A stretch of 64,000 bases of DNA from the NCBI RefSeq assembly GCF_013342145.1, contig NZ_JABUQZ010000003.1, forward strand, positions 1 to 64,000, given 5' to 3'. This stretch comes from Haloterrigena gelatinilytica (GTDB lineage: Archaea > Halobacteriota > Halobacteria > Halobacteriales > Natrialbaceae). The notes under the pieces are model-generated. The model was not told the DNA's origin, made no database searches, and was given only the letters and a program-made list of their open reading frames with translations. The position numbers and the translations under genes are program-made. Positions 6,701 through 54,075 of this stretch are shown here, piece after piece (positions within the stretch are counted from its first letter, which is position 1; every line of letters starts with the position of its first letter).

Positions 6701-7335
6701 TTGTCGTGCGAGGCCGTAAACAGTGAACCCCCGTTCTGGGATACCGAAAGATAGCGGACCGTATCACTGTGGCCTGTATAGTTCCACAGTTGGTCGCCTG
6801 TGGAGGAATTATGAGCCCGGACAGTTGCGTCTGCGCCAGCAGAATAGACTGTCTCTCCATCTGACGAAACTGCAACGCCAGCTAGTTGGACCGAATACCC
6901 CGTGAACGTCCACTTTTCCGTGCCATTATTTGCGTAGATTGCACGAAGTGTCTGGTCTTCGGATGCCGTGAAAATGAGGTTCTCGTCGGAACCAACACTG
7001 ATCCCGCCGACCGTATTGCTATGGCCAGTGTAATTCCAGAGTACTTCGCCAGTGTCTTTGTCGATTGCTTTGACATCATTATCGGTCGACGCGGTATAAA
7101 TTACGTCGCCGCCAATCGACTCGTTATCCGATACTGCCGTTAGTGACGGTTGAATAGTGGACGATGGACCCCCAGTATCTGCACGGGCGACCCCACCACC
7201 GCCAAGGCCGCCAGTGAACGCGATCGGCATCGAAACAACGAGCAGCGTCGCGATGAATATCGACAAACACTGCCGCCCATTAAAGTGGATCTGCGAGCTG
7301 AAGCTGTCGCTCGGGGAGCGGGTTTTGTCAGTCAT
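3730..7335 (-). CDS. Giant membrane-anchored surface protein: beta-propeller plus stalk
   Basis: About 1,201 aa from the ATG at 7335 (MTDKTRS); an in-frame start at 7416 would add 27 residues ahead of the signal and is less likely. The hydrophobic segment at residues 22-45 is a signal or anchor. Then come about seven 42-residue blades with the pattern TGxxLWNYTGHSDTVRxxxVS and TASxDxTVRA, a WD40/PQQ-like propeller, followed by a short carboxypeptidase-regulatory-like segment (SGVVTTQDGVAVDSATVTATG). A long stalk with helical and Ig-like parts follows. The C-terminus has a membrane segment (LSIVSSLVGSLSVVGVGLF) and an RRR stop-transfer. The stalk is homologous over its whole length to the gene at 24823-27978. 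It heads the export cassette and overlaps the protease gene. Adhesin, receptor-binding spike or cell-contact protein are the leading guesses. Confidence 0.85.
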   Translation of the reverse strand: MTDKTRSPSDSFSSQIHFNGRQCLSIFIATLLVVSMPIAFTGGLGGGGVARADTGGPSSTIQPSLTAVSDNESIGGDVIYTASTDNDVKAIDKDTGEVLWNYTGHSNTVGGISVGSDENLIFTASEDQTLRAIYANNGTEKWTFTGYSVQLAGVAVSSDGETVYSAGADATVRAHNSSTGDQLWNYTGHSDTVRYLSVSQNGGSLFTASHDNTVRSLDTGDGSENWVYSGHTDTVRAVVTSPDDETVYSAADDGSVRALSADGGSELWTNTASSNAVRAIGVDYAGKKIYVGGANQKIRALSTSDGSEVWEVDIPNDIAAGGISEYVTGNILIGDSSGTLYKYAASDGTQLESFDVHSNYVRAELPAFWTGLGTVSGVVTTQDGVAVDSATVTATGITEPALDPSDAKSLEEQANDLRDELTNPLPDSWDPNYDLESHYKDANANYLLVHEAKDWGLGTTTSVDSNVDAPRLQLDSDQQVVLSMWDPTKNGDWIGNQVDNSFPGKAVSGTIVIEQKGPTGETIDSMERETTTIATTTGGRITGENKHPGVRAHLSQGVYVAYPEGARERGYTFVVGSPDELANSWESDLKTEAGKLTDRAKRIRSLVNSNELVQATAKTNETGHFTLQLPSNTVSAEVNAMKVDGTTLDAINDPSMQDLREAQSGGYNGTFYLPAPTPTSTNPPTENLSVTVYRSPEVPLSPMEDFADLQQWLRNQQLNETISGLQSEYDKRFEEMNRSVLERTYNSHRSLVETVPGTKDRYLERSDLDSVHDAGDLSDSQLATETNHMQVALSKAGQIEPPDPGEDPITIKDGELHVEYPLPGGVDTDTLQPEIHWSDGEVGQIPEEYWSVESTGAFGLSNELVIDGYPIDSSDPAAFDLRVLGGGSGGFLDDRLSALNPSFSGSIPDVRAVDLNTMAPGDSERVSMTVRPGDDSNYGGLESVEVLGPDGQQLTTDVTGDKASFETNGAGKHFVRATVTDSTGGQFVHTFQLRALEQGRNDPATVRAETATGNRVFALVGEKLDDAEIRVDGGSLEVDAIAPGGEIPSSIHIKPRAAMEQSATSIDVRVLEGRNEATVDTTVETVIHLDSLADGAVVWRGEPSIWGQPLADGGTRYGEVMERDIGDGETKYVIRTYSNSDGSVSLTIDENPGFVATNQHRIAQYIPRPSLPVLSIVSSLVGSLSVVGVGLFARRRQPKLR

Positions 7336-13648: not shown

Positions 13649-16600
13649 ATGAGCGGCGAGTTTGACGTACTGGTCTGCAAGCCATGTTCTGGCACGTGGA
13701 TCAAGCCCGTCGACGACTGGTCCGACGGCGGCGACTACAAGTCACAGGACTCGGTCGACTGTCCACACTGTGGCGCCGAGCGCGACCCGTCAACGGTGAA
13801 ACGGCTGAAGAGCCTCCCGTCACGGGAGCAAGCCGGCGAGTTCCGCGCTCGCTATCTCGCGAAACGGTCCGAAGAGGTTCAGACCTACAACGAGTTCGTG
13901 AACGAGTGGGGCGTCTACGGCGAGCAACTCAACGAGGTTGACGCACGGACGCCGTCGCCGACCGACGACTGCCCCGACGTCGAGATCGGGACGGTCGGCG
14001 AGTATCTCGAGGCCCACTATGCGACAGCGGGAGACACGTCCGAACGAGTCACGAACCCGATCGAAGAGACCATCGTCGGTCACAAGAAGCGCTTCGAGAC
14101 GCTAAACGAGTATCGTCTCGAGCAGTTCCGAGAGGAAACCCGGAAGTACGGTGAGCTTGCCGAGGAGATGGCTGGCACCGCGGTCTCACTGGATGACCAA
14201 CTCGAGACCTACTACGGCGAGGCCGACGGCGACCATCGGACGCTGAACGACCCCGAGCCGTCGACCAAACCCGACGCGCCCGACTACGATATTCAGTCGC
14301 TGGCCATCCAGCCGACGCCGCCGGCCCAACAGCGCCTCGAGACGGTGACGGCCGACGTGCCGCCGACAGTCTCCGAGTGGCTGCCGGCCGTGCTCGAGGA
14401 CATCCTCCCGAAGCTGGTTCGGGCGGTCGACGAGCTGGCCGACGAACACGCCGACGGGGAGATTACCGCCGGCCGACTCGCGAAGCTGTTGGTCACCGAG
14501 TGTGGCGTCCCCGACGAACGAACCGGCTTCGCGAGCGTGCTGGCCACGTACGCGCGACAGTATCATGGCGTCGACCTCGACGACCAGGACCTACTCGACT
14601 ACCCGCGCGACCAGCACGAACGAAACAAGGAGTGGGCACAGACCGCGCTCACGTCGATCGGGACCGGCCGGAACGCGCTGGGACTGACCTACGAGGATCT
14701 GGCGGCGACCATCGTGCCGATCCTCCGCGAGACCACCGTCGAACCGGAGTTCGTCGTTCGCTTCCCCGGCGAAGACTGGGAAGCGTCCGGCCATGCATCG
14801 ACGCGTCGGAAGACACTCACCGCACTCGAGCAACTGGCGATGGCCGGCGACGTCACGATCGTCGCCTCGCCGCGGGTCGCCCGAACCGTCGATTCGAGCC
14901 ATCCTGAGTTCGCCGACCGCGTTACTCAGACGGCCATGCCGGGGCGACAGAATATACAATCCGACGAACCTGCGAACGAGTGTGACGAAGGGACGATCTA
15001 CACCGACCTCGAGCTAATGGACAAGCGCGCGGGCAAGCTTGCGATCCTGAAACACCTCGAGCGCGACCCCGATGCAACGGTCAAAGACCTTGCCAACGAC
15101 GCCGATATCGGCCTCTCCCGTGGTTCGATTCGCCCATACATCGAAGCGCTTGCAGACGACCACGGCTACGTCGACGTCGATCGCCGCGGCAACGAGAACA
15201 CAATGAGCCTCTCCAAGCGTGGCGACGTTGCCGCCGGTCTCATCACGAACGACCTTCGCGTCGTTCACCCCGATCAGGAGTCCGTTTTCGCGACTTTCGA
15301 CCATCCCGATAATTCCGATTCGGACGACTGTTCGGACAGCGTTACTGAGACCCCAAGTCAGTCAGCAAGTACAGTGTATGGAACGGCCGACGGGATGGGT
15401 GGGGGAGAGGCCGGCCGTACAGCGGAAGGTGCGCTGGCCGACACGGGCGACGCCGAGACCGCCGGCTACGTACAGTGGCTACCGAAGGTGGCCGGCAGTA
15501 GTTGGCCCCTACACGCCCGCATTACGGCGGCTGACGCACGCGACGGCGTGAACTTAAACGACTACCCCGTAGAACGGTGGGAGGACGGCCGGGTGACCTA
15601 CGTGAGTTGCATGGAGGACCACCTTGCCGTGAGTACGCAGTACGGCGGAACGATACCGACACTGGTGCGGCTTGCAACCGCGTTACTTGACGACCAGCTA
15701 TGGAGTACGGTCCTTACGCCGTCGGCGCTCGGTGACGAACTCGAGCACTGTTTCGGCGACGCCGTCGAGAGTAGCCGCGAGGCGTGCGACCATCTCGTCC
15801 GGGCGGCCCAAGTCGGGTGGCTCTCGGAGGACGAACGCGCCTACGATCTCCTGAAGGATCGCTACGCGGGCGTCCGCTCGGTCCTGTTAGGAAAACTCGG
15901 CGAGCTGGATGACCTCGATGAAGACGAACGCACCGAGACGATCCAGAAAGCCCACGGACTGCTCATGTCCGCGACGGCGCTGTACGACGCAATCGGCGTC
16001 GATATCTCCATCGAGGTGCGCGTTCCCGAACCGAACAACCTCAACGACACCCAGTTCTGCCGGTTCGTCTCGGAGGTTGCGACGCGCCAATCCTCCTACG
16101 GGATGCACTCGCTTCAGCGAAACTTCTGGGAACCGGACAGTCAGAAACGCAAGACGGCGATGGGATTCGATCCGGACCCGTCCGACCCGAACGCCCACCT
16201 TCGCGCGTCGTGGGTCGTCTCGGGGCCGGGAATCTCGGACTACGCCGAACAGATCCGTGGGGCGATCGCCGCTCGCGACGAACAGCGCCTGGATGATCGC
16301 ACAGACTACCGACCGGTCGAACTCGAGGTGCCGGTCACTGCCACCTCCGACTACGCGGCGATGCGTCATGCCGTCACGACGGTTCTCGAGAAAAAGAACC
16401 TCTGTCCGGGCCGCGAGTCCGACGCCATGCGCCGGACGGCACGACTCTTCGAAGCATACACTGGGTCACCGTTCGACGTTGTGGACGCGCTGACGGCGCT
16501 GACGCGGTCGCAGCGTCCGGGCGACGTAACCATCGCGGACATCGAGCACGCGCTCTCGACGCTGCCGGCGGGGCGCCTGTTCCCGACGCTGGACGCGCCA

Positions 16601-17113
16601 ACGCCGGGCAAGATCCTGAAGGCCGTGCTCACCGCCGACGGCCCGATCGGGCGAGCGGATATCCTCGAGCGCGTCGGCTGTTCGGGCGAGACCTATCGGA
16701 AACACGCCCACCGACTCGAGGCGCTGGATATCCTCGAGCGCGTCAACGGCGGCGAGTGGTCGGCGACAGTCGCGCCGTGGTACGTTCCCGAGACCGACGC
16801 GACGAAACCCGGCACGGATCGTGTCTCGGTCACGACGACGGGCGTCGACGGTGTGCTGTTCGATGCACTCGACGACCTCGGCTACGACCTCGGCGATCCT
16901 GATCTGATCGACGCGTTCGGCGAGGTGCTGAAACGGGGCAAGCTCATCGCGGCGGTCGGGGCGTGGATCGACGACTGGGTGGACGTACTGGCATCGTTAC
17001 TGAAACCCAACCCCGGCGCCGTCGGGCATTCTTCCCACGACGTCGTGACGCTTGGGGAGAAACCAGACCAGACGACGCTCGGCGAAGTAGCCCAGCCGGC
17101 GCTTGCGGACTAA
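13649..17113 (+). CDS. 1,154-aa zinc-ribbon/multi-HTH protein, replication-initiator candidate
   Basis: The N-terminal 100 residues resemble the haloarchaeal DUF5817 zinc ribbon: C10-x2-C13 and C38-PH-C41, followed by a Lys/Arg-rich helix (KRLKSLPSREQAGEFRARYLA). A HTH lies near residues 455-530 (AILKHLERDPDATVKDLA, then SRGSIRPYIEALADDHGYV) and another near 985-1040 (GPIGRADILERVGCSGETYRKH). I see no Walker A motif, so it is not an obvious helicase. Size and multi-HTH build recall large haloarchaeal plasmid Rep proteins (RepH type), but this is an analogy. It is followed after 9 bases by a GIY-YIG-like gene on the same transcript. A large noncoding region upstream would suit an origin. Confidence 0.65.
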   Translation: MSGEFDVLVCKPCSGTWIKPVDDWSDGGDYKSQDSVDCPHCGAERDPSTVKRLKSLPSREQAGEFRARYLAKRSEEVQTYNEFVNEWGVYGEQLNEVDARTPSPTDDCPDVEIGTVGEYLEAHYATAGDTSERVTNPIEETIVGHKKRFETLNEYRLEQFREETRKYGELAEEMAGTAVSLDDQLETYYGEADGDHRTLNDPEPSTKPDAPDYDIQSLAIQPTPPAQQRLETVTADVPPTVSEWLPAVLEDILPKLVRAVDELADEHADGEITAGRLAKLLVTECGVPDERTGFASVLATYARQYHGVDLDDQDLLDYPRDQHERNKEWAQTALTSIGTGRNALGLTYEDLAATIVPILRETTVEPEFVVRFPGEDWEASGHASTRRKTLTALEQLAMAGDVTIVASPRVARTVDSSHPEFADRVTQTAMPGRQNIQSDEPANECDEGTIYTDLELMDKRAGKLAILKHLERDPDATVKDLANDADIGLSRGSIRPYIEALADDHGYVDVDRRGNENTMSLSKRGDVAAGLITNDLRVVHPDQESVFATFDHPDNSDSDDCSDSVTETPSQSASTVYGTADGMGGGEAGRTAEGALADTGDAETAGYVQWLPKVAGSSWPLHARITAADARDGVNLNDYPVERWEDGRVTYVSCMEDHLAVSTQYGGTIPTLVRLATALLDDQLWSTVLTPSALGDELEHCFGDAVESSREACDHLVRAAQVGWLSEDERAYDLLKDRYAGVRSVLLGKLGELDDLDEDERTETIQKAHGLLMSATALYDAIGVDISIEVRVPEPNNLNDTQFCRFVSEVATRQSSYGMHSLQRNFWEPDSQKRKTAMGFDPDPSDPNAHLRASWVVSGPGISDYAEQIRGAIAARDEQRLDDRTDYRPVELEVPVTATSDYAAMRHAVTTVLEKKNLCPGRESDAMRRTARLFEAYTGSPFDVVDALTALTRSQRPGDVTIADIEHALSTLPAGRLFPTLDAPTPGKILKAVLTADGPIGRADILERVGCSGETYRKHAHRLEALDILERVNGGEWSATVAPWYVPETDATKPGTDRVSVTTTGVDGVLFDALDDLGYDLGDPDLIDAFGEVLKRGKLIAAVGAWIDDWVDVLASLLKPNPGAVGHSSHDVVTLGEKPDQTTLGEVAQPALAD

Positions 17114-17122
17114 CTGCCAGAC

Positions 17123-17809
17123 ATGGTAGATACAAGTCAACATTCGTATTCGGAATCGGAGGTCGAACAGGCGATCGAGGATCTTGAGCCGAAGGTGGTC
17201 TTGGAGGGGTTGCAACTCGAGTCGGAACTCACCAAGCTCCTGAACTACGGCGTCCTACTCGAGGAAGCGAAAGCATCTGTCGAAGACCAGCACGGTCGCG
17301 AGTACACTGTCACCGACGAGTACGAACAATTCGACGAGTGGCCCGGAACCACGCGCCCGCCGAAGATCGATTCGAGTTCGTGGGTCGACCTCGAGCACGA
17401 CCAGGGCAGCCGAGAGTTACGCAAGATCGCCCGCCAACTCACACAGGGCTACGACTACACCGTCTACGTTATCGAGTGCGAACCACTCGCGCCGTCGCTC
17501 CGCGTGCTCGAGCGGCGTGCGAAAGAGGTCTTCGGCGAGTGCCCTGATTGGGTCCGCCGTGCGTACAACGCAGACCGAGTCTTCTACCTCGGGCAGACCT
17601 CGGCGCTACACAAGCGACTCGTGACGCACGCGACGGGAACACTCTCGGAAACACCGCCGCCGGCAGACGTCGCCCGGATCAGCGACGTGACGGCTGTCGG
17701 TGTTCCGTTCCGAACGACGACTCGCGAGGATGCGGAGCGACTCGAGACGTGCTACGGTGAAAATCTACAGGATGTGCTCGATGGGGAGGTGTTCCTCCAC
17801 TTCCGCTAA
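17123..17809 (+). CDS. GIY-YIG-like nuclease domain protein
   Basis: 228 aa. The C-terminal half carries the fold's landmarks in order: YTVYVIEC near residue 111 (GIY strand), VFYLGQTSALHKRLVTHATG near 152 (YIG strand, Gln-Thr-Ser and the following Arg and His), and EDAERLETCYG near 201 (the metal-binding Glu). An insertion of about 35 residues separates the first two motifs. The N-terminal 100 residues are helical and acidic. It sits 9 bases after the Rep-like gene, suggesting a joint role in replication, resolution or transfer. Its 3' end overlaps the convergent 17806 gene by 4 bases. Confidence 0.7.
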   Translation: MVDTSQHSYSESEVEQAIEDLEPKVVLEGLQLESELTKLLNYGVLLEEAKASVEDQHGREYTVTDEYEQFDEWPGTTRPPKIDSSSWVDLEHDQGSRELRKIARQLTQGYDYTVYVIECEPLAPSLRVLERRAKEVFGECPDWVRRAYNADRVFYLGQTSALHKRLVTHATGTLSETPPPADVARISDVTAVGVPFRTTTREDAERLETCYGENLQDVLDGEVFLHFR

Positions 17810-18309
17810 CTCTCGAGCCCAGTAAACCGCCACGTCGTCGTTCGAAGCCCACGATTCACGAGTTCGAAGTGATCGGTCGCGGTAAGCGTCTTGATCCGAT
17901 CCTTCAACGTCTCGGCAGACCGGATGTCAGTGTGGCCGCGGTACAGCTCGCGAAGATCGTCGATCGTCACCCGTTCCCGACCGTCGGCGACGAGTGCCTT
18001 CATGACCTTCTTGTCTCGGTGGTCGGTCGCCGACGTATCGCTCAGATCGATCTCGTCACCGGAGAGACCGTTGACCGCCTCGAGCTTCGAGAGTCGGCTG
18101 TTCAACTGTCGGTTGCGGGCCTCGAGTCGGCAGAGTTCGGTGTGCATCTCTCGGAGAACGTCCGCGAGCAGTTGCACTTGCTCGTTGGCTGGGTCGTCGG
18201 CAAGTTCTTCGACGCTCTCAAAAATATCACGTTGCCGACGCTCGATTCGCTTGGTTCGGCTGGGACGGTCAGTTTCGCCGCCTGCTGCGTGTTCAGAATG
18301 AGCGGCCAT
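17806..18309 (-). CDS. Coiled-coil plus winged-helix regulator
   Basis: 167 aa from the ATG at 18309 (MAAHSEHAAGG); an upstream in-frame Met is less likely. A coiled coil spans about residues 35-85 (RQRDIFESVEELADDPANEQ to RNRQLNSRLSKLEAV). The C-terminal part (DKKVMKALVADGRERVTIDDLRELYRGHTDIRSAETLKDRIKTLTATDHFELV) is a winged helix. Probably a DNA-binding regulator or structural DNA-binding protein of the element. The ligand is unknown. Confidence 0.65.
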   Translation of the reverse strand: MAAHSEHAAGGETDRPSRTKRIERRQRDIFESVEELADDPANEQVQLLADVLREMHTELCRLEARNRQLNSRLSKLEAVNGLSGDEIDLSDTSATDHRDKKVMKALVADGRERVTIDDLRELYRGHTDIRSAETLKDRIKTLTATDHFELVNRGLRTTTWRFTGLES

Positions 18310-18369: not shown

Positions 18370-18600
18370 TTAATTCGCCCGCCAGACGAACTCTTGGCCG
18401 ATTTCTTCTTTTTCGATTCGCCCCTGTTCCTCGAGTTCTTTCAACCGTCGCCGGGCCGTGTTCCGGTGGCAGTCAAGTTCGTTCGACACTTCGCCAGTTG
18501 TTGTCGGTCCGAGCCGTCGGACGGCCTCGAGAAAGCGGTTCGACGTATATTCGGAGTCGAACCGACCGCTGGTCTCGTCTCGTTGTCGATCGGGTGGCAC
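18370..18600 (-). CDS. Winged-helix regulator, 76 aa
   Basis: RFLEAVRRLGPTTTGEVSNELDCHRNTARRRLKELEEQGRIEKEEIGQEFVW is a compact ArsR/MarR-like winged helix with a clear recognition helix (HRNTARRRLKELE). It is transcribed away from the large modification operon at 18793-24802 and shares its intergenic region, where the dyad GTGCA-CC-TGCAC (18636-18647) is a likely operator. An autoregulatory and operon-control role is inferred. Confidence 0.75.
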   Translation of the reverse strand: MPPDRQRDETSGRFDSEYTSNRFLEAVRRLGPTTTGEVSNELDCHRNTARRRLKELEEQGRIEKEEIGQEFVWRAN

Positions 18601-18792: not shown

Positions 18793-18981
18793 ATGAGCAC
18801 GTTACAGACTGAACGACTTAAATCTAGCCGCAACGAATCGACGGAAGAGAACCCGTCACAGACCACCAGCAAGCCACGTGTCATCGGCACGTCCGACGGC
18901 GAGGTCAACGTCGATCTCCCGGCGACCCCATCCTACGAGCGCAACTACAGCGATCTCATCGAGGAGGCCGTCCGCCAATGA
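18793..18981 (+). CDS. First gene of modification operon, 62-aa hypothetical
   Basis: ATG 18793 (MSTLQTERLKSSRNES) with GAGG 12 bases upstream as a possible ribosome site. The first 30 residues look disordered; the C-terminus (PSYERNYSDLIEEAVRQ) is helical. Overlaps the next gene as ATGA. Unrecognised. Confidence 0.55.
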   Translation: MSTLQTERLKSSRNESTEENPSQTTSKPRVIGTSDGEVNVDLPATPSYERNYSDLIEEAVRQ

Positions 18982-19631
18982 ACGGTCGCTACAACGCGGG
19001 CGACGGCCAGACCAACGAGTTCCCGAAACTCAAGGCCACCCACGGCGAAGATCCCGCCCGGTGGCTCGAGTCGAGTGAACTCATGGCGACCGCACGCATC
19101 CGCGGGATTCGCGACCCGGAACTGCTCGAAGCCTACCACGCGGTCGCAAAACAGATTACGGCTGGCAAGTTCCGCGAGTCGATTCTCGAGGCGATCGCCG
19201 AGCGCAAGGCCGACCTCGGACTCGTGGCTGGCGACGAGCTGGCCGACGCGCCTACTCCCGACGCGACCGCCGACCCGGTCCCGGCGACCGACGGCGGAAC
19301 CGAACTCTCCCACTCCGAAGAGGAGACAGACACCGCCGAACCCGAGGTTTCCGACGTTGCGATCCATCCCGACGCGGCGGGACTCGAGGCCGGCGAGGTC
19401 CTGGTCCTCGAGCGCGGCGAGCGCACGGAGTACATTTTCCCGGCGACCGCCGACGCCGCCGAGCCGTATCTCGCCCGCATCTTCGCAGACGGGGACGAGC
19501 GCACGCCGGAACCGGTCGCCCTCTCGTTTGATGAAGTCCTCTCGCGCTTCGAGGGGTCGCCCGATTCGGTCCCGCTGGCAGAGATCGACGTCGATGCACC
19601 GCGGGGCGCGGCGACCGGAGGCGATGCCTAA
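18978..19631 (+). CDS. Hypothetical acidic protein, 217 aa
   Basis: The N-terminal 80 residues form a helical domain (LKATHGEDPARWLESSELMATARIRGIRDPELLEAYHAVAKQ) that resembles a small adaptor fold; then a disordered acidic linker (residues 95-130) and a beta-rich C-terminus (EVLVLERGERTEYIFPA). Start overlaps the previous stop as ATGA, so translation is coupled. No family recognised. Confidence 0.65.
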   Translation: MNGRYNAGDGQTNEFPKLKATHGEDPARWLESSELMATARIRGIRDPELLEAYHAVAKQITAGKFRESILEAIAERKADLGLVAGDELADAPTPDATADPVPATDGGTELSHSEEETDTAEPEVSDVAIHPDAAGLEAGEVLVLERGERTEYIFPATADAAEPYLARIFADGDERTPEPVALSFDEVLSRFEGSPDSVPLAEIDVDAPRGAATGGDA

Positions 19632-19993
19632 TGCCCGGACTCTCCGGTCGCATGACCTACACTGACCGCAAGCGCGCCCGTGCCAATCACCTCGAGTCCG
19701 AGTATGACGACTTCGGCCCCGAGGATCTCCCCGAGACTATCGGCGCGTTCGAACTCTCCTACACGGACCCCGACGGCGACTACTGCCCGAAACACGACGA
19801 GTCCTACCAGTACGAACACCCGGACGGGCGCACGCTCGAGATTACCATGACCGAACGCAGCCACAGCTACGAGGTGCTGACGCGGACGACCAACGATGGC
19901 GTCTGCTACACGAAAGACGAGGAGGTCGGCCACTATGGCTACCTTGGACAGGCCGCCGAGGCTGCCGAGGATCGATTCGGAGGTGATGCCTAA
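19631..19993 (+). CDS. Hypothetical protein, 120 aa
   Basis: Starts MPGLSGRMTYTDRKR at an ATG overlapping the previous TAA by one base. Contains DDFGPEDLPETIGAFELSYTDPDGDYCPKH and EITMTERSHSYEVLTRTTNDGVCYT. Only two Cys, so not a zinc ribbon. A mixed alpha/beta small protein of unknown role within the modification operon. Confidence 0.6.
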   Translation: MPGLSGRMTYTDRKRARANHLESEYDDFGPEDLPETIGAFELSYTDPDGDYCPKHDESYQYEHPDGRTLEITMTERSHSYEVLTRTTNDGVCYTKDEEVGHYGYLGQAAEAAEDRFGGDA

Positions 19994-20232
19994 TGCTGTG
20001 TTGCGAGCACTGCCAATCGCCGAAACACCTCCGCATCACCAAGAGCCACACGACCGTTTCGAACGACCACACGCAGGTTCTCAAGATCCACGAGTACCTC
20101 AAGTGCCGCGAGTGTGGCCTCGAAGGGACGGCCACGGCCGACCTCGAGTCCGAGACGCTCGACCTCTCGGGCGGGCTGGTCGACTCTCCCGAACGCCCGC
20201 GAGCGACCCCGCGTGTCGGAGGTGGGGCCTAA
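19993..20232 (+). CDS. Zinc-ribbon protein, 79 aa
   Basis: CCEHCQSPKHLRITK near residue 3 and KCRECGLEGTATADLE near 36 provide a four-cysteine zinc ribbon. Start overlaps the previous TAA by one base and the stop abuts the next ATG. Probably nucleic-acid or protein binding. Confidence 0.6.
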   Translation: MLCCEHCQSPKHLRITKSHTTVSNDHTQVLKIHEYLKCRECGLEGTATADLESETLDLSGGLVDSPERPRATPRVGGGA

Positions 20233-22038
20233 ATGGCCAACCCACTGGGCACCGAGAAGGTCTCGGACACCGAACTCCTCGCTCGCGTTCGCGAGTGCTA
20301 CGACGCCGGCCAGACGCTCTCGGGTGGCGGCGTCACCGCCACGACGGCCGCCGCGGACCTCCCGATCGCCCCGAAGACGGCGGAGGATCGCCTGCGCGAC
20401 CTCGCCGAACGGGGCCGCCTCGAGCGCGACTGGGGCTTTTCTGATCATGGTCACCGCCTGGGCTACCGCTGCCCAGAGGATCGCACCGTCGCGTTGCGTG
20501 ACGGCGAGTCCCGCGACAACGCCCACGCGGGCGCGGTCAACGCCCAACTCGCCGAGGCCGACGCCGAGCTTCGAGACGAACTCGAGGCCCGGCATGGCGA
20601 CGACGATGGCGATCGGGAGGTTCGGGCCGACGGCGGCCAGACCACACTCCCGGTCGGCGAGACGCGCCCGCCGCAGGTCCTCGCGAACGTCCGCACGACC
20701 GCGATGGGCGAGATCGTCGCGATGGTCATGTGCGCCCACCGCTTCGACCCCGAAGACCTCCGGGGCTGGCACACCCACGAGCCCGAGGCCGTCATCCGCG
20801 GGTGGGTCCAAGAGAACGCCGAGGCGACGGTCTCGCGGCTGCTCGGCGACGACGCACAGGACCACTCGACGCGGTCTCCGGCGTGGGTTCCCGAGATCGA
20901 ACGCGAGCGGATGCGCGAGCAGGCCCGCGACGACGACGGGACCGAGCAAGCGACGCTCGTCACGGACGGCGGTGCGATCGACTGGTACTGCCCCGACTGT
21001 GGCGAACGACGCCGCACGCACACGGTCGACGAACCAGACGGGCGCTGCTATACCTGCGGCACCTCGGTCGACTGGCAGCGCACGCCACCAGCGGACGACC
21101 GGGAGATCCGCGCCGACGGGGGCGTTCCGTCCTCGGATGGAATGGAACGATTCGAGGGGGTCGACGAGATCGTGCCGAACGGCGGTCGCGATCGCGACGG
21201 ATCTCACCGAACTCTTGGCCGCTGGACCTTCGAGTACACTCCGGCACGGGAGTTCGTCGAAGACCGACTCGAGGGTCGCGTTCTCAACGCCTGCGCGGGG
21301 AAGACGCTCCTCGAGCACGACGGCGAGGTCGTTCGGAACGATCTCAACCCAGACCGAGACGCCGATCTCCACGTCGACGTGTGCGAGATAGCGGACCACT
21401 TCGTCCCCGGAGAGTTCGATACGGTCGTTTTCGACCCGCCGTTTGACGATCACCAAGCGGACGACAAATACGACGGCCTGCGCGCCGACGGCGTTCTCGA
21501 GGCGTTCGGAGAGTTCGCGAAGCTTGTCCGGCCGAAAGGGCGCGTCATCACGTTCGGATGGAACTCGTGGGGCATGTCGTCGATAGACGCTTTCGAGCGC
21601 GAGGAGACGGTCCTCCTCCAACGCGGCCCGTGCCTTCGCGATGTCATCGTGACCGTAGACCGCCGGACCAACCATTCTATCACGGTGAAACGGAGCGGAA
21701 ACGGCCGCACACTACACACGGAAACTGACGATTCCGACCTCCGCGCCGACGGCGGCACGGTCGGACTCGACGGCCGCCACTGGACGCCGACCGCCGGCAC
21801 AGACACGGACTCCCCGAACGCCTGTCAGAACTGTGGTGCCCAGCACACCAGCCAGTACGCGCGTGTCTTCGGCGATTCCGAGACCGACACCCTCTGGCAC
21901 TGTCACGACTGCGACGAGCCCGAGATTTGCGGCCGGGATATGAAACAGGGCGCCGGATCGAATCCCGACTACGACCCGCTGGTCGACCGCGGGAAGTCGA
22001 CCGACCACTACCCGGTGTTCGGAGGTGAGGGGCAGTGA
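20233..22038 (+). CDS. HTH / DNA methyltransferase / zinc-ribbon fusion protein
   Basis: 601 aa. Residues 10-80 form a HTH (ELLARVRECYDAGQTL, then APKTAEDRLRDLAERGRLERDW). A zinc ribbon (CPDCG and CYTCG) lies near 255-280. Residues about 335-500 are an AdoMet-dependent methyltransferase: motif I VLNACAGKT near 349, acidic residues D-N-D after it, and DPPF near 401, the catalytic motif of N6-adenine or N4-cytosine DNA methylases. A C-terminal double ribbon (CQNCG, CHDC) follows. The order motif I before DPPF is that of beta/gamma-type enzymes. Overlaps the DpdA-like gene as GTGA. A DNA-modifying role is well supported; base and site are unknown. Confidence 0.8.
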   Translation: MANPLGTEKVSDTELLARVRECYDAGQTLSGGGVTATTAAADLPIAPKTAEDRLRDLAERGRLERDWGFSDHGHRLGYRCPEDRTVALRDGESRDNAHAGAVNAQLAEADAELRDELEARHGDDDGDREVRADGGQTTLPVGETRPPQVLANVRTTAMGEIVAMVMCAHRFDPEDLRGWHTHEPEAVIRGWVQENAEATVSRLLGDDAQDHSTRSPAWVPEIERERMREQARDDDGTEQATLVTDGGAIDWYCPDCGERRRTHTVDEPDGRCYTCGTSVDWQRTPPADDREIRADGGVPSSDGMERFEGVDEIVPNGGRDRDGSHRTLGRWTFEYTPAREFVEDRLEGRVLNACAGKTLLEHDGEVVRNDLNPDRDADLHVDVCEIADHFVPGEFDTVVFDPPFDDHQADDKYDGLRADGVLEAFGEFAKLVRPKGRVITFGWNSWGMSSIDAFEREETVLLQRGPCLRDVIVTVDRRTNHSITVKRSGNGRTLHTETDDSDLRADGGTVGLDGRHWTPTAGTDTDSPNACQNCGAQHTSQYARVFGDSETDTLWHCHDCDEPEICGRDMKQGAGSNPDYDPLVDRGKSTDHYPVFGGEGQ

Positions 22039-23111
22039 GCGACGACCTCGAGAACGTCGACTCGGCCCACTCCCACCGGCCCGGCTACTCCATGACCGAG
22101 CCGTGTGAACGCTGTGGACGCGACGGCCCGTGGCTCAAACAGCCGATCGACGAGGGCGGCCGCGGCGCGACCGAGGCCTACTACGGCTACGCGCCGGGCC
22201 GTCTCTGCCGGGGCTGTCACATGGAACTGCTCCCGAACCCGGAGGTCCTGTACACCGAGCTACTGGACATCGAGTTCACGTTCTACTACGGGTGCGCGTC
22301 CGGGTCCTCGCGAAAGGCGCTCCGCAAGATGGAGGAATCGCACGTCATGGTCTCCTACGCGACGAAAAACAACGGACCACTCGGGACCGAATCGGTCCAC
22401 TTCACCGACTGTGGCGGCGCCCCCGATTCGTTCAAAGACGGCGATATGGCCGACACGGGCGACTACGTCACCAGTGACGGCGACTACCTCGAGTACGTTG
22501 CCGAGGCCGACGCCGACCTCTGGTCGCTTCGAGACTACCCGTGCGAGCCCGACGTGCTCGAGACCCACGACCGGACCGTCGCCGACCACCAGCGGATGAC
22601 CATCGATCGCCACCGGTCGCTTCTCGATTCGGCGGCCGACCGCGGGATCGACGGCCAGCCGGTCGCGGTTCTCCAGGGCTGGACGGTCGAGGACTACCTC
22701 GAGCATATCGATGCCCACCGCGAGGCTGGGACGCTGACCGACTACGTCGGGATTGGCTCAATCTGTCGCCGGAACGCCGACGAGGAGATTCAGGATATCA
22801 TCCTTGCCGTTCGCGACGCGCTCCCGGCGCGGTGTCGGATTCACGCGTTCGGTGTCAAGCTCCCGGTCCTCGAGAAATCGGGCGTGCTTGATGCACTCGC
22901 CAGCGCCGATTCGTGTGCCTACGATTACGGGCTCATGATGGAGGCGATCTACAACGGCGGCGACTACTCGTGGAAGCCGATCGTCGGCGAGTACCTCGAG
23001 TTCAAAGAGCGCGTCGGCGAGCTACTCGAGAGCTACGACGACCTCGAGCAACAGTCCCTCGGCGCGTTCGGCGGCCAACCAATCGCCACCGACGGCGGTG
23101 AGACCCAATGA
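22035..23111 (+). CDS. DpdA-like tRNA-guanine-transglycosylase-fold protein
   Basis: 358 aa from a GTG overlapping the preceding stop. Landmarks of the DpdA/TGT superfamily are in order: a TDCGG motif with Asp125, SLRDYPCEP with Asp167, AVLQGWTVEDYLEHI at 211-225, YVGIGSICRR at 237-246 and IHAFGVKLP at 269-277. Two N-terminal Cys pairs (CERC 24-27, CRGC 58-61) could bind zinc. In bacteria and phages DpdA-type enzymes swap guanine in DNA for a 7-deazaguanine. Translational coupling to a DNA methyltransferase fits DNA rather than tRNA as target, but the substrate is inferred. No preQ0-synthesis genes are in the window, so the base would come from the host archaeosine pathway. Confidence 0.75.
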   Translation: MSDDLENVDSAHSHRPGYSMTEPCERCGRDGPWLKQPIDEGGRGATEAYYGYAPGRLCRGCHMELLPNPEVLYTELLDIEFTFYYGCASGSSRKALRKMEESHVMVSYATKNNGPLGTESVHFTDCGGAPDSFKDGDMADTGDYVTSDGDYLEYVAEADADLWSLRDYPCEPDVLETHDRTVADHQRMTIDRHRSLLDSAADRGIDGQPVAVLQGWTVEDYLEHIDAHREAGTLTDYVGIGSICRRNADEEIQDIILAVRDALPARCRIHAFGVKLPVLEKSGVLDALASADSCAYDYGLMMEAIYNGGDYSWKPIVGEYLEFKERVGELLESYDDLEQQSLGAFGGQPIATDGGETQ

Positions 23112-23356
23112 GCCGCGCCGCCAAGGCGGTCCAACAGCGCCGCCGGGACGAACAGTACAACGACGTGTTCCGGGCGATCGCCACCGCCGACACCGCACCG
23201 ACGAAACGCGAGATCGCCCTCGAGACCCACCGCTCGGATGGCCAAGTCCAGCGCATCCTGCGTGACCTTCGCGAGTACGGCCGCGTGCGCCGCGTTCGCG
23301 ACCCCGAGGACGGCCGCATCATCCGCTACGAGATTACGACGCGCACCGACCAATGA
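23108..23356 (+). CDS. Small winged-helix DNA-binding protein, 82 aa
   Basis: AIATADTAPTKREIALETHRSDGQVQRILRDLREYGRVRRV is a helix-turn-helix with a basic wing (RVRDPEDGRIIRYEI). Overlaps both neighbours as ATGA. Its place in the operon suggests a regulator or DNA-targeting accessory for the modification genes. Confidence 0.65.
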   Translation: MSRAAKAVQQRRRDEQYNDVFRAIATADTAPTKREIALETHRSDGQVQRILRDLREYGRVRRVRDPEDGRIIRYEITTRTDQ

Positions 23357-23820
23357 GCATTCGCAACCCGAAAGGGACCACACAAATGGCAGCCACACCC
23401 ACCCAGACCGACCGTACCGACACGCAACCGACCGACGCGACGCTGACGCTGTTTGCCGCCCGGCCACGCTACGAGGGCGGCGAGTCACTCGCGGCGATCG
23501 CCGACGACCTCGAGTCCGACCTCGAAACGATCGCTCGCGAACTCCGACACGCGGGCGTGCTGAAACCGTGGGACGACCCGCGGGCGCTCGCGCATCTGTA
23601 CCACGAGGACGACCACGCGCTGGCCGACCTCGCCGACTGTTTCCCCGATGGCCCCGGCCCGGAGCCGATTCGCCGCCGGATGGAACGGTACGGCATCGAC
23701 CGCGAGCCGACGCTCGCGGAGCAACTGGCCGACCCGGAGTTCGGCCCGGAGGATCTTGGCCTGTCGCCGACGACCGGCGACGACCACGCGAAGTACACCA
23801 AGCGAGGGGAGCGCGCATGA
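23353..23820 (+). CDS. HTH-domain protein, 155 aa
   Basis: Two HTH-like units are visible: GGESLAAIADDLESDLETIARELRHAGV near residue 50 and DDHALADLADCFPDGPGPEPIRRRMERYGI near 85, the layout of resolvase-type HTH repeats. The N-terminal 35 residues are Thr-rich and disordered. Likely binds DNA. Coupled to neighbours by ATGA overlaps. Confidence 0.6.
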   Translation: MSIRNPKGTTQMAATPTQTDRTDTQPTDATLTLFAARPRYEGGESLAAIADDLESDLETIARELRHAGVLKPWDDPRALAHLYHEDDHALADLADCFPDGPGPEPIRRRMERYGIDREPTLAEQLADPEFGPEDLGLSPTTGDDHAKYTKRGERA

Positions 23821-23918
23821 GCGCCTACGGCCAGCTCGTCCCCGACTCGGAGCAAGCGGACCCGGCAGACGTCGAACAGGCGATCGCACGACTCGAGCGC
23901 GAGGGCGAGCACGAATGA
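23817..23918 (+). CDS. 33-aa microprotein
   Basis: MSAYGQLVPDSEQADPADV then EQAIARLEREGEHE, with ATGA overlaps on both sides. It is too short to classify; supported mainly by its perfect placement in the overlapping gene chain. Confidence 0.4.
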   Translation: MSAYGQLVPDSEQADPADVEQAIARLEREGEHE

Positions 23919-24070
23919 CGCCGTTCCCCATCACCACGGCCGCGCTCGCGGCGATCGTCGGCCTGTGGGCGCTGGCGGCCGTCGGCGTCGGCGTTGTGGA
24001 TCTGGCGACGCGCCTGCGTGCCGGCCGTGTTCGCGCACCCAGCGGACTCGAGGAGGCCGATTCCGAATGA
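23915..24070 (+). CDS. 51-aa single-pass membrane protein
   Basis: One hydrophobic helix (ALAAIVGLWALAAVGVGVVD, residues 10-29) followed by a basic stretch (RLRAGRVRA) that would stay in the cytoplasm. ATGA overlaps on both sides. Function unknown. Confidence 0.5.
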   Translation: MTPFPITTAALAAIVGLWALAAVGVGVVDLATRLRAGRVRAPSGLEEADSE

Positions 24071-24279
24071 CGCGCCACATGACCGACCGGAAGGACTGGG
24101 TCTACATCGCGGAGTGTTCCGAGCACGGCGACGAGCACGTTCGACTCGAGGCCAGCGCCCGCGCCGCGGCCGAGGGCTATCAGGACCCGGAGGAACTGTT
24201 CCCGATCGACGAGTGTCTGGGGTGTGGTGCCTCGCTTGCGACCATCACTGAATCCCAACAGACGGAGGTTCTCGAATGA
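24067..24279 (+). CDS. 70-aa hypothetical with Cys/His site
   Basis: Start ATG 24067 (MTRHMTDRKDWVYIAEC) overlapping the previous stop. CSEHG and CLGCG could form one zinc site. The middle is DEHVRLEASARAAAEGYQDPEE. Unrecognised. Confidence 0.5.
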   Translation: MTRHMTDRKDWVYIAECSEHGDEHVRLEASARAAAEGYQDPEELFPIDECLGCGASLATITESQQTEVLE

Positions 24280-24587
24280 GCACAAACGAATCCGACGAGA
24301 CCGAGCGTGCGGACATCCCGCCGAAGGGGCTCCCCGAGAAATGGCGAGACATCGCCGCCCACACGCAGCGGGATAACGAACCCTACGCGAAAGCACTCCG
24401 GCGCTGCGCGACGGAACTCGAAGACTCCGACCGCTATCCAGATACGGAAGCGGACGACCGCGACCGCGTGGTCGGTCACCTTGAACAGTTCTACACCGTC
24501 CGCGAGGACGGGACAGCCCATGCAGAGGGTCTTGAACCGGGGAAGTATGCCCTCGTGCGGTTCGACCCGGAGCGTGAGAACGAATGA
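24276..24587 (+). CDS. Hypothetical acidic helical protein, 103 aa
   Basis: KWRDIAAHTQRDNEPYAKALRRCATELEDSDRYPDTEADDRDRVVGHLEQFYTVREDG is mostly helical. Overlaps both neighbours by ATGA. No recognised family. Confidence 0.5.
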   Translation: MSTNESDETERADIPPKGLPEKWRDIAAHTQRDNEPYAKALRRCATELEDSDRYPDTEADDRDRVVGHLEQFYTVREDGTAHAEGLEPGKYALVRFDPERENE

Positions 24588-24802
24588 GCACGAACACCGA
24601 CGACCCGTTCGACTACGAGCACGATATCAGGTCCCCGTACGCCACCCGGCCCGACGACGTGCTCGAGGCCCACCACATCGAACACGAGACGGCGCCGGAC
24701 GAACTGGCGATCTTCCCCGCGAGCGCGGGCGACGAGGTCACGCACCAGTGGATGGTCGCGACCGGCGCGGAATCGTTCAGAGACCTCGAGAACTGGCGAT
24801 AA
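24584..24802 (+). CDS. 72-aa hypothetical, last gene of modification operon
   Basis: MSTNTDDPFDYEHDI, acidic, ending in VTHQWMVATGAESFRDLENWR, a short pattern common in small haloarchaeal proteins. It ends 20 bases before the 3' end of the convergent giant surface-protein gene. Confidence 0.5.
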   Translation: MSTNTDDPFDYEHDIRSPYATRPDDVLEAHHIEHETAPDELAIFPASAGDEVTHQWMVATGAESFRDLENWR

Positions 24803-24822: not shown

Positions 24823-27800
24823 CTACGCGACGACTTTCTCCCCGATGAACGTCTGACCGACCGCCAGCGGCCAGCTTACCTCGGGAATGCGAGCGTCTGC
24901 CCAGTGAGCGATTCGGTCGGCGAGATTCGGTTGCTCCACTGTCCGAATCGTCACGCTTCCGTCGCTGTCTGTGTAGGTCCGAATGATGGCCTTAGTGCTT
25001 GAATCACTCTCGCCGTTCGGTCTCGTCACTTCGCCGAACCGAGTGCCGCCGCCCTGTAACACGGCATCGTCGTTTCGCCACGCAACGGCGCTCTCGCCGT
25101 AGGAATCGAAGTGAACCACCACTTCGACGTTGGTCTGAAGTGCTCGCTCCGAAGATCCTTGCACGACACTCACCTCGAGCGCGTGGTCGCGCACGTCAAT
25201 CCCGGCGTCGGGTTTCACATGCAGCGATCCAATCGAGGCCTCATCCCCTGGTGCGACGGCCATCACGCTGGTCGTCCCGCGCTCGGTCTCGATTTCTGCC
25301 GATTCAAGCACCTCCCCAACCACGGCGTACTCGCCGCCGACACCCTCGCCGATACGGACGGTCGCGGGCTCGCTGCGGGGATTCTCGAGTGCCCGAACGC
25401 TCTCGCGCACGACGTACTCGCCGGTCTCACCGGAGACGGTCAGCCGCAGGTCGTACACCCCGACGCCGCCGGTGTCGAAGCGCACGCGCCCATCGGTCAG
25501 ATTCGACACCCGAACCGCGCCGTCGGGGCCGACGACCTCGTGGCCGACGATCTCCCTGCCGTCGACGCCGACCGAGACCCGTTCGTCGGGACCGGGGGCC
25601 AACGTCGAGAATTGGACGGCTTCGAGCGCCCCGACCTCGCCGATCGGCACGCGGTCGTCCAACAGCCCGTCCTCGCCAGCGCCGACGACGCGGACCTCGC
25701 CGGCCTCGCCGTCGATCGGTGCATCGTCGACTACCAGTTCATCGTCGCTGAACCAGCCACCCTCATCGACGTGGTAGTGTTCTTCGACAACCGTCTCACT
25801 GCTTCCGTCGGGGTAGTGAATCTCGGGGGCCAGCGTCTCGGGGTCGACGCCGTCGGGCAGCGTATACTCGAGGTCGAGCGTCCCGTTGATCGCCTCGAGC
25901 GAGATATCCTCCGCGCTCGGCGGGTCGACGGTCGCCGCGGTCGCGAGTGCCCGTTGCATGTGGTCGGTCTCGCGGGCGAGTTCGTCGCCGCCCAGCTCGT
26001 CGGCGTCGCGAATCGCCTCGAAGTCGGACCGATTCAGGTACGCCGACTCGGCGCCGGGGACGGTCTCAACCAACCCGCGGTGGGTCTGGTACACCGACTC
26101 GAGGCGCTGGCGTTCCATCTGGTCGAATCGCTGGTCGTACTCACTCCGAAGTTCGGCGACTGTTTCGTTCAACCGCTGGTCCTCGAGCAAGGCCTGCAAG
26201 TCCGCGAAGGACTCGATATCGCCGCTTGGTATCGAGTCGGCCCGATAGACGTCCACCGCCACGCCCTCGGCGGGCGGGGCGACGGGCTGGCCGTCGGGTG
26301 CGGGGAGATACACGCTCCCGTTGTACCCCGACAGGCGCGCTTCCCGAAGGTCTTCGAGCGACGGGTCGGTGACGCCTTCGAGCACGGTCCCGTCGGCTTT
26401 CATGGCCGTCAGTTGGACCGAGACCGCCCGTTCGTCGATTTGCATTTCGAACCGCCCCTCGGAATCGGTCCGCACGGTCTCGCGAACGATGGTCTCCTCG
26501 GCGAGGAGAGTCGACACGCGTTCGGCCCGCTGGGTGAGTTGGCCGGCCTCGTCGCGCATATCGTCGGCGATCGCACTCGCAATCTCGTCGGGGTCGCCGA
26601 CGGAAAAGACGTAGCCCGCACCGCCGTCGGCCGGGGCGACGCGATAGATGCCGACCGGAAGCGTTGTCCGCACGCCGTGATGGTCGCGCTCGGTGAGGGG
26701 ATTCGCGCCGGTGGTCGTGGCGATCGGACTGGTTTCGTAGGTCCGGGTCTCGAGGGTGTCGCCGCTGCCGGCGAGTTGCTCGACCTGAATCTCGCCCGCC
26801 GTCGTGGCGCCGGGGAACGACCCGTCGACTTGGTTCTCTATCCAGCCACCGTCGGCGCCGCCGTCCCACAGGGAGAGCGTGACCTCGCTTCCCTGCGAGA
26901 CCGTGAGTCGGGGCTCTTCAACGGAGGAATCGGCGATATGCGTCGTCCCGACGCCCCAGTCGTCGGATTCATGCACCAGCGCGTAGGTCGCGTCCGTGTC
27001 GGTATGCGAGTCAAGATCGTAGTCGGGGTCCCACGCGGCGGGGAGCGGATTCTCGAGGTCCGCGAGTAGGTCCTCGGCTTCGCGTTCCAACGCGCCGGGG
27101 TCGGTGGACTCGAGGCCGCCCTCGATCGCCCCAACGCCGATGACCGTAGCGTTCGAAACTCCCGAGCCTGACTGGTCCGTGACGCGCCCCGATATCGTCT
27201 CGGTGCGATCAATCTCGGCGTGGAACTCGACAATTTCCTCGGATTGGGAGAGGTCGCCGACGTACCACTTCCCGTTGTACAAGCCCATGCCGTTGGCTTC
27301 CCCGGAGAGGTTCCCGCCGATATCGTAGGTCTCGAGCACGTCGCCCTCGAGTGTGGTCTCGGTGACGGTCTCGCCCGCGTCGCCGGTCAGATACAGACTG
27401 TCGCCCGCGATGTGCAAGCTGATCGTCGTGTTGTACGGCGAGCCGATGCGCTCGCGTTCGGTGTAATCGCTCCCGTTGAAGACGGCGATCTCACCCGCGT
27501 CGGCGACGTAGATATCGCCGTCGTGGGCATCGAGGTTCCACGGCGCTTCGTTGAACTCGGTGGTCGCAAAGGTCGAATTATCCCACAGGACTTCGCGATT
27601 CGTGAATCCATCGTCGTACTGATAGACGACGTTTTCCGCGCCGGAGGCCACCAGCCACGTCCCGTTGTGCCGGGTCATCCCCGAGGGCTGGATACTCAGC
27701 GCGTGCTCGTTGGTCACGGAGAGCGACTCGTCGAGTACGTAGACGGTTTCCGTGTAGCCACCGCCGACATAGAGGCTCCCGTCGTGTTCGGCGAAGCCTT

Positions 27801-27978
27801 GGGGCCACTGCTCGCCGCTGATCGACGTGCCGTTGCCGGTCGGTTCCCAATTCTCGTGGTCGGTACCATCGCTTGTCGTGGTCGTGGTCGCCGTCGCCGT
27901 CCCGATCGGTACGCCCGCGACGATGGACGTGACCAACAGGGCCGACAGGACGACCGCGCGTATCGTGTGCCGTTTCAT
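24823..27978 (-). CDS. Giant secreted propeller/stalk protein, paralogue of 3730-7335
   Basis: 1,051 aa. Sec-type signal at residues 1-30 (AVVLSALLVTSIVAGVP), then a shorter, different propeller (blades such as GFAEHDGSLYVGGGYTETVYVLDESL). From about residue 260 to the end it aligns with the stalk of 3730-7335; both have a WDPxYDLxSH motif and both have YNGxxYLPAP. Unlike the paralogue there is no C-terminal membrane helix; the protein ends with a short amphipathic tail. It stands alone, convergent with the modification operon and divergent from the PadR gene. A soluble or partner form of the same surface apparatus is the favoured reading. Confidence 0.85.
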   Translation of the reverse strand: MKRHTIRAVVLSALLVTSIVAGVPIGTATATTTTTSDGTDHENWEPTGNGTSISGEQWPQGFAEHDGSLYVGGGYTETVYVLDESLSVTNEHALSIQPSGMTRHNGTWLVASGAENVVYQYDDGFTNREVLWDNSTFATTEFNEAPWNLDAHDGDIYVADAGEIAVFNGSDYTERERIGSPYNTTISLHIAGDSLYLTGDAGETVTETTLEGDVLETYDIGGNLSGEANGMGLYNGKWYVGDLSQSEEIVEFHAEIDRTETISGRVTDQSGSGVSNATVIGVGAIEGGLESTDPGALEREAEDLLADLENPLPAAWDPDYDLDSHTDTDATYALVHESDDWGVGTTHIADSSVEEPRLTVSQGSEVTLSLWDGGADGGWIENQVDGSFPGATTAGEIQVEQLAGSGDTLETRTYETSPIATTTGANPLTERDHHGVRTTLPVGIYRVAPADGGAGYVFSVGDPDEIASAIADDMRDEAGQLTQRAERVSTLLAEETIVRETVRTDSEGRFEMQIDERAVSVQLTAMKADGTVLEGVTDPSLEDLREARLSGYNGSVYLPAPDGQPVAPPAEGVAVDVYRADSIPSGDIESFADLQALLEDQRLNETVAELRSEYDQRFDQMERQRLESVYQTHRGLVETVPGAESAYLNRSDFEAIRDADELGGDELARETDHMQRALATAATVDPPSAEDISLEAINGTLDLEYTLPDGVDPETLAPEIHYPDGSSETVVEEHYHVDEGGWFSDDELVVDDAPIDGEAGEVRVVGAGEDGLLDDRVPIGEVGALEAVQFSTLAPGPDERVSVGVDGREIVGHEVVGPDGAVRVSNLTDGRVRFDTGGVGVYDLRLTVSGETGEYVVRESVRALENPRSEPATVRIGEGVGGEYAVVGEVLESAEIETERGTTSVMAVAPGDEASIGSLHVKPDAGIDVRDHALEVSVVQGSSERALQTNVEVVVHFDSYGESAVAWRNDDAVLQGGGTRFGEVTRPNGESDSSTKAIIRTYTDSDGSVTIRTVEQPNLADRIAHWADARIPEVSWPLAVGQTFIGEKVVA

Positions 27979-34160: not shown

Positions 34161-35003
34161 ATGACCGACGAGATACTGTCCGCGGCTACCTACTGCCCGA
34201 AAGGCGGCATCGCAAAGACGACGAGTACGGCCCACATGGGCGTCGCGGCCTACCAGGACCACGATCTCGAGACAGTCTTGATCGATCTGGCGGGCACGCA
34301 AAACGACCTCGCGACCCAGTTCGGACTCGCCGACGACGTCGCCGACCCGGACGTCCCGGTCTCGATTGTGTTCAGCGACAAGTGGGAACTCCTTCGGGAC
34401 AGCGCCGACGACCTCGTTGATCGGATGGTCTACGAGACCACGGAGGGCGTCGACCTCATCCCGGCCGATAACGGCCTCGCCGCCGAAGACAACAATCTTG
34501 CGAACGTCCCGCGTGAAGATCGATATGACCGGCTCGAGACGTTCATCCACGACGAGATTGCCCCGGAGTACGACCTCGTCTTGTTCGACCTGCCGGGCAA
34601 GGAGGACAATATCACGATCAACGGGTTGCACGCTGCCGAGAACGTCGTCGCGCCGCTGAAACCCGGCGCGTTCGAACTCACCCAACTGGAGAATCTCGAG
34701 GGCGAACTCGAGACGATCGCCACCGATGGCGACCACGCTGCCAAGCCGCAATTGCAGCTCGTCTTTGCGACGATGGTCGACCGGACGACTAACCTCTCGA
34801 GTGAGTTCGTCGACCAACTCGAGACCGATTACCCCGAGATCGCCGGATCGCCCGTCGCCGAATCGGCGAACATCGCCAACGGACAGGCCGACGGCCGGAC
34901 GCTGTTCGCCTACGAGGACGACGAGTTATACAACACGGGCCAGCGCGCTCGGAAGGCGTACCGCGAACTGACCGACGACCTACTCTCCCGACTCGACCAA
35001 TGA
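34161..35003 (+). CDS. ParA-family partition ATPase
   Basis: 280 aa. Deviant Walker A KGGIAKTT at 14-21, a Walker A-prime region at 38-46 (VLIDLAGTQND, with Ala-Gly-Thr in place of the usual Pro-Gln-Gly), and Walker B LVLFDLPG near 135. ParA proteins position plasmids by ATP-dependent DNA binding together with a partner protein bound to a centromere. The partner gene overlaps its stop as ATGA, and phased GTATC/GATAC repeats lie just upstream and downstream of the pair. Confidence 0.9.
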   Translation: MTDEILSAATYCPKGGIAKTTSTAHMGVAAYQDHDLETVLIDLAGTQNDLATQFGLADDVADPDVPVSIVFSDKWELLRDSADDLVDRMVYETTEGVDLIPADNGLAAEDNNLANVPREDRYDRLETFIHDEIAPEYDLVLFDLPGKEDNITINGLHAAENVVAPLKPGAFELTQLENLEGELETIATDGDHAAKPQLQLVFATMVDRTTNLSSEFVDQLETDYPEIAGSPVAESANIANGQADGRTLFAYEDDELYNTGQRARKAYRELTDDLLSRLDQ

Positions 35004-53781: not shown

Positions 53782-54075
53782 ATGCCAGAGAGAAATTCAG
53801 GGGGTTCGGCCGGAGAATCGGGCCACCCTCGAGAGCACACGCAAGCACCGGAGATGATCGGTACCCCTGCCGGCGCCCATCCGGTCGATCCGTTGCTATC
53901 AATCGCATCGTTTACCGCTGCAATCGGCGCGTCGATCGCATGGGTTCATCCGGCGACGAGCTACGATCATATCTTCCCAGTGGTCATATTCCTTGGACTT
54001 ATCATGGCGGGTCTGTTTGGATTCCCGATTGCTGAGGCCATCTACGAGAGCCTATCGAGTAAGCGGAACGCATGA
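53782..54075 (+). CDS. Two-helix membrane protein fused by overlap to the integrase
   Basis: 97 aa from ATG 53782 (MPERNSGGSAGES). Two membrane segments: LLSIASFTAAIGASIAW and HIFPVVIFLGLIMAGLFGFPI. ATGA overlap with the integrase gene means coupled translation. A membrane partner for an integrase is unusual. Confidence 0.55.
   Translation: MPERNSGGSAGESGHPREHTQAPEMIGTPAGAHPVDPLLSIASFTAAIGASIAWVHPATSYDHIFPVVIFLGLIMAGLFGFPIAEAIYESLSSKRNA

Follow-up and report, generated by a model that had tools for sequence, protein, structure and literature searches.

In bacterial dpd clusters, DpdA provides the modification arm of a restriction system. When the DpdA of phage 9g was expressed by itself in E. 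coli, dPreQ0 appeared in plasmid DNA, and the loss of dpdA in phage CAjan abolished protection from restriction enzymes; phage Orion, a DpdA-only phage whose host is without preQ0, had no modification (PMC6884629). For the halovirus HRTV-29, which has DpdA without a preQ0 pathway, the use of host preQ0 was proposed (PMC8651126). The dpdA gene described here adds to an already known enzyme family, and the swap that it shows in a methyltransferase slot is a clear and testable case.

The element

The window, by which we mean the whole stretch of DNA that was analyzed, covers 64 kb from the start of C3, a contig of 77,522 bases. The genome comprises three contigs, another of them 4.29 Mb long, and we place it in the Natrialbaceae by the records with which it has long matches in common. 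Because a search of C3 for an end-to-end overlap as a sign of circularity found none, we infer its plasmid status from its being a separate contig, from a ParA-type partition ATPase (34161 to 35003, + strand) and a large winged-HTH replication-type protein (13649 to 17113, + strand; phrog_17376) that is conserved across the plasmid family, and from synteny with circular plasmids. The blocks that it shares are with pHTUR05 of Haloterrigena turkmenica and unnamed4 of Natrinema sp. DC36. A tyrosine integrase is encoded at 54072 to 55202 (+ strand).

A short stretch (17806 to 18309 and 18370 to 18489, both on the - strand, and 18793 to 18981) has 96 to 100% identity at the protein level to pHTUR05 amid flanking genes with only 29 to 37%, which suggests recent recombination. 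Elsewhere, a 1,201-aa protein with WD40/PQQ beta-propeller repeats (3730 to 7335, - strand) and a 1,051-aa protein (24823 to 27978, - strand) match the same gene of the DC36 plasmid. A HerA-like (DUF87) ATPase at 64253 to 66352 of C3 (L035:253 to 2352, - strand) has in its vicinity a series of large proteins, secreted or membrane-bound, that no Pfam profile matches, and this region is possibly a transfer or particle module.

A DpdA-family protein and its relatives

The gene at 22035 to 23111 (+ strand) is predicted to encode a dpdA-like DNA-guanine transglycosylase of 358 aa. Its reading frame is intact, its start codon is GTG, and a perfect Shine-Dalgarno sequence, GGAGGTGA (22021 to 22028, + strand), lies 6 nt 5' of it; the GC3 is similar to that of the neighboring genes. 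The original prediction called the product DpdA-like from the order of its motifs, and the translation does contain TDCGG, RDYP, LQGW, VGIGSICRR, and HAFGVK in that order. Profiles, tree, fold, and catalytic residues confirm the assignment, and it is well supported that the ORF encodes a genuine DpdA-family protein.

The Pfam DpdA profile PF23859 scores 74.9 bits (E = 7e-21; cut-off, 27) and phrog_1279 matches with an E-value of 1e-26, while the Pfam tRNA TGT profile reaches 11.9 bits, below its cut-off of 26.3. The NCBIfam equivalog NF041059, which describes DpdA of the bacterial dpd type, gives 28.9 bits against a cut-off of 200; hence, the window protein is not of that type. A profile built from 17 relatives had as its best PDB match the DNA-guanine transglycosylase 7UI4, a weak match (E = 0.036). 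In the alignment of these 17 members, D125, D167, Q214, H270, and D292 are invariant. The three aspartates, in TDCGG (D125, codon at 22407), RDYP (D167, 22533), and SADS (D292, 22908; all + strand), align with aspartates of the host TgtA and of phage 9g DpdA, and TDCGG is a minor deviation from the usual [IV]DSGG. In the tree, a fully supported split divides all DpdA-type proteins from TgtA, and the window protein falls among archaeal virus and plasmid relatives.

The AF2 model of the protein (pLDDT, 70.8, with the core mostly above 80) has eight strands in barrel order, forming a TGT-like (beta/alpha)8 barrel. Its N-terminal 79 residues are not confidently predicted. They include a zinc-ribbon-like CxxC...CxxC extension (C24, C27, C58, and C61; 22104 to 22220, + strand), likewise of low model confidence, which is not present in most DpdA relatives. 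Two relatives, on L105 and L038 (7.6 to 8.9 kb), have a different N-terminal CxxC...CxxC extension, and the L038 plasmid region also contains thyX and ribonucleotide reductase genes. In Foldseek searches, TGTs (about 1e-9) came slightly ahead of 7UI4 (5e-9), and the fold alone therefore cannot separate a DNA from a tRNA substrate. Among viral proteins, a mycobacteriophage DpdA was the top match (2e-13), and the runner-up was six orders weaker. The original prediction had named a match to a tRNA TGT with a PUA domain as an outcome that would speak against it. Structure prediction and comparison with DpdA and TgtA gave a different picture: the C-terminal TGT zinc site (CxCxxC...H) and the PUA part are absent from the window protein, and the host chromosome encodes a separate, full TgtA (282 bits) that has the zinc motif.

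Within the order, 9 of 342 genomes have PF23859, and its presence in the family is patchy, a distribution that is sporadic and mobile. Relatives are located on haloarchaeal plasmids, on a Thermococcus plasmid, and on viral contigs. Those with 49 to 51% identity come from one viral contig and another archaeal genome; on the viral contig (L003), the gene for the 49% identical protein lies about 5 kb from a terminase-large-subunit-like gene, read from the sequence rather than from a profile match. Two proteins of HVTV-1, gp69 and gp83, were considered as DpdA4 candidates and rejected, as neither aligns at the catalytic residues; gp69 is a DUF6610 protein. The window also encodes an ASCH-domain protein (45256 to 45624) that is 70% identical to a Natronosalvus rutilus plasmid protein adjoining a C5 methyltransferase, and the plasmid with this pair also bears a DpdA.

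The dpdA gene in a methyltransferase slot

The run of genes on the + strand from 18793 to 24802 comprises about 12 to 13 tightly packed genes, in agreement with the 13-gene operon originally predicted. The ORF upstream of dpdA (20233 to 22038, + strand; 601 aa), which bears the DPPF motif of a methyltransferase, stops at 22038, so that the GTGA overlap with the dpdA start, also predicted, is real. However, overlaps of 4 nt are found at many junctions, and the GTGA overlap is therefore a habit of the whole operon and not peculiar to this pair.

For synteny, we anchored 15 loci on a conserved cassette gene (18978 to 19631, + strand): those of pHTUR05, DC36 unnamed4, and N. daqingense unnamed3, together with twelve loci of other genomes, some of which may share their origin with the species of the named plasmids, so that not all of the 15 are independent events. 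In 11 of the 15, a gene for a C5-cytosine DNA methyltransferase is part of the cassette (PF00145 with E = 3e-33 or better in the three that were checked against Pfam). Nine of these 11 genes have a DUF7563 zinc-ribbon gene upstream, in most cases immediately so. In five of the 11 loci a homologue of one of two window genes lies downstream of the methyltransferase: the small winged-HTH gene at 23108 to 23356 (+ strand), whose homologue comes after the C5 methyltransferase in L087 and L200, or the HTH_38-like gene at 23353 to 23820 (+ strand), with homologues in L033, L034, and L197. At L200:2884 to 4631 the C5 methyltransferase seems split into two reading-frame pieces and is perhaps decaying. 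The order in the window is a DUF7563 zinc ribbon, which here forms the C terminus of the 601-aa protein, then directly dpdA, then the genes at 23108 and 23353. No C5 methyltransferase was found on C3, and neither DpdA nor the methyltransferase domain found in the window is present in the slot of any of the 15 relatives.

Judged by its position, DpdA thus appears to occupy the place of the DNA-modifying C5 methyltransferase of related plasmids, which argues for DNA as its substrate. This positional argument is the strongest that the analysis yielded. Since both sit in the same cassette, DpdA most likely does the job of the C5 methyltransferase by a different chemistry.

Host preQ0 and a proposed marking of plasmid DNA

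The host chromosome has adjacent QueC and QueD genes, and QueF was sought in the host genome and is absent; hence, the cell should have preQ0 and lack preQ1. We consider it likely that the solitary plasmid DpdA uses host preQ0 to mark plasmid DNA, in place of cytosine methylation. The Asp nucleophile D292 would displace guanine from DNA, as TGT does on tRNA, and host preQ0, made for archaeosine, would take the place of guanine. This would most likely yield dPreQ0 at some of the guanine positions in plasmid DNA, a mark that may protect the plasmid from host restriction or tell self from non-self. Counting against this reading are the NF041059 score (28.9 versus 200 bits), the rank of tRNA TGTs above 7UI4, the TDCGG motif, and the existence of unmodified DpdA-only phages. 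The locus offers a natural swap experiment: a near-identical plasmid cassette has a C5-cytosine methyltransferase in one form and a guanine transglycosylase in the other. Confirmation would mean that 7-deazaguanine marking and DNA methylation are interchangeable on archaeal plasmids, that such marking is not confined to viruses, and that one gene is all that an element needs for it in any host making preQ0 for archaeosine.

Alternative explanations and the upstream methyltransferase

A reading that extends this explanation and does not exclude it concerns the 601-aa protein. It consists of five modules joined by RADGG/VTDGG-type linkers: an HTH module (20233 to 20487, + strand), a middle domain, a zinc ribbon, a class I SAM methyltransferase domain of the phrog_11619 family (21142 to 21690, + strand), and the DUF7563 zinc ribbon (21760 to 22035, + strand). 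Because related plasmids encode several modules, among them the HTH and DUF7563 modules, as small ORFs of their own, we suggest that it arose by fusion of neighboring overlapping genes. In an alignment of 21 relatives of the methyltransferase domain, the DPP and AGKT motifs are invariant and the DPP[FY] form is conserved; relatives are found in 44 IMG/VR loci and in Halorubrum pleomorphic virus 12. The domain combines [DN]PP[YFW] and a SAM motif in a class I fold, a combination in which RNA methyltransferases share the motif, and the nearest folds to its model (pLDDT, 80) are the RNA methyltransferases TrmN, Trm11, and MnmM, with modest scores. Of the amino-methyltransferase originally predicted, the DPPF motif holds up; the model is a generic class I fold, and the activity itself is a motif-level guess.

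The DPPF methyltransferase probably sets a second, independent mark. That the operon makes two, methylation of the 6mA or m4C type and dPreQ0, each blocking different host restriction enzymes, is a plausible reading to which we give somewhat less than an even chance. Two related plasmids (L034 and L205) pair a C5 with an N6/N4 methyltransferase in the same cassette, and HVTV-1 has a preQ0 pathway together with an annotated N6-adenine methyltransferase. Against it stand the likeness to RNA methyltransferases and the searches with the domain, which found no strong Pfam DNA-methylase match and only weak, motif-level matches in the PDB.

It is unlikely that DpdA is inactive or repurposed and is kept by hitchhiking. 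The TDCGG motif is divergent, the gene is solitary, and some DpdA-only phages are unmodified (PMC6884629); however, all catalytic residues are retained in an intact ORF that has a good Shine-Dalgarno sequence and a GC3 like that of its neighbors.

We regard as very unlikely a two-step hypermodification that would account for the translational overlap: a 7-deazaguanine put in by DpdA would afterwards be methylated by the enzyme encoded next to it. The GTGA overlap and the perfect Shine-Dalgarno sequence are consistent with such a unit, and a dPreQ1 methyltransferase, DpdM, was reportedly described in phages by Cui and colleagues in 2023. A further parallel comes from an unrelated phage contig (L154:4093 to 7697), which encodes within 3.6 kb a radical SAM protein, a phrog_11619-type methyltransferase, a ParB-like protein, a diverged DpdA-like protein that Pfam DpdA misses, and a Vut_1/YhhQ-type transporter (PF02592); the methyltransferase lies 0.8 kb from the diverged DpdA. 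L154 is a possible candidate for a 7-deazaguanine locus and a single suggestive case, and no association shows in the background: among the 43 viral records that have this type of methyltransferase, many of them fragments, 42 are without a detectable DpdA and one has both. Where DpdA relatives have long flanks, the methyltransferase is missing in every case but L154, and on L071 a 97% identical methyltransferase occurs without DpdA. A conserved pair as a general rule is therefore rejected, and the 4-nt overlaps link many genes of the operon, not these two alone. Moreover, a host without QueF offers no evident preQ1 amine as a target for methylation. Neither of the features that mark DpdM, a fold unlike known nucleic-acid methylases and available preQ1, was found here, which sets the window enzyme apart from DpdM by description only. 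The more specific proposal that DpdA and then the class I methyltransferase yield a methylated 7-deazaguanine from host preQ0, unlike the bases made by QueF and DpdM, with L154 as a second carrier, is quite improbable.

The original prediction had seen in the pair a new joint activity. With a single co-occurrence in the 43 records, and with a C5 methyltransferase and neither gene in the slot of related plasmids, it does not emerge as a conserved unit; adjacency and one diverged parallel are what speak for a joint activity, a weak case. As for novelty, a DpdA-only halovirus, HRTV-29, had already been described (PMC8651126).

That the protein is a paralogue of the tRNA-guanine transglycosylase and acts on tRNA is equally improbable: it has the same fold and catalytic residues, and tRNA TGTs head the Foldseek matches, but it is without the C-terminal zinc site and PUA part, it scores under the TGT cut-off of Pfam, the chromosome has its own TgtA, the relatives are on viruses and plasmids, and the gene fills a DNA methyltransferase slot. 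It is hardly credible that DpdA is the modification half of a Dpd-like restriction system with a nuclease that recognizes unmarked DNA, as in the bacterial clusters, since among 19 contig proteins scanned, with small ORFs only partly covered, PADLOC matched no DpdB to DpdK partner and no restriction nuclease was found.

Comparison with known systems

We return to the preferred reading, a solitary plasmid DpdA that would mark DNA with host preQ0, and set it beside the systems described. The window protein shares its fold and catalytic residues with archaeal TgtA (ArcTGT), from which it differs in having neither zinc site nor PUA domain, in a host that retains its own TgtA. With the bacterial DpdA 7UI4, described as a DNA preQ0 insertase, it has in common the TGT-like barrel and the catalytic Asp residues, whereas the identity in the structural alignment is about 12% and no dpdB to dpdK partners were found among the contig proteins scanned. 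The small methyltransferase of Halorubrum pleomorphic virus 12 belongs to the same phrog_11619-type family as the domain at 21142 to 21690 (42% identity); unlike that domain, it is encoded by a free-standing gene, without DpdA.

Mycobacteriophage DpdA (phrog_1279; for example, MacnCheese and Bella96) is the best represented annotated phage group among the matches, with 31 to 35% identity over the core and the best viral fold match. It forms a separate clade in the tree, however, and is without the N-terminal zinc-ribbon-like extension of the window protein. The reported DpdA of HRTV-29 was not recovered in searches for relatives of the window DpdA. In the viruses that have only DpdA (Hutinet et al. 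2019, group 3; halovirus HRTV-29), the arrangement is of the same kind: a solitary DpdA on a mobile element without preQ0 genes, which presumably uses host preQ0. In contrast to these viruses, the window DpdA is on a plasmid-like replicon and lies inside a methyltransferase cassette.
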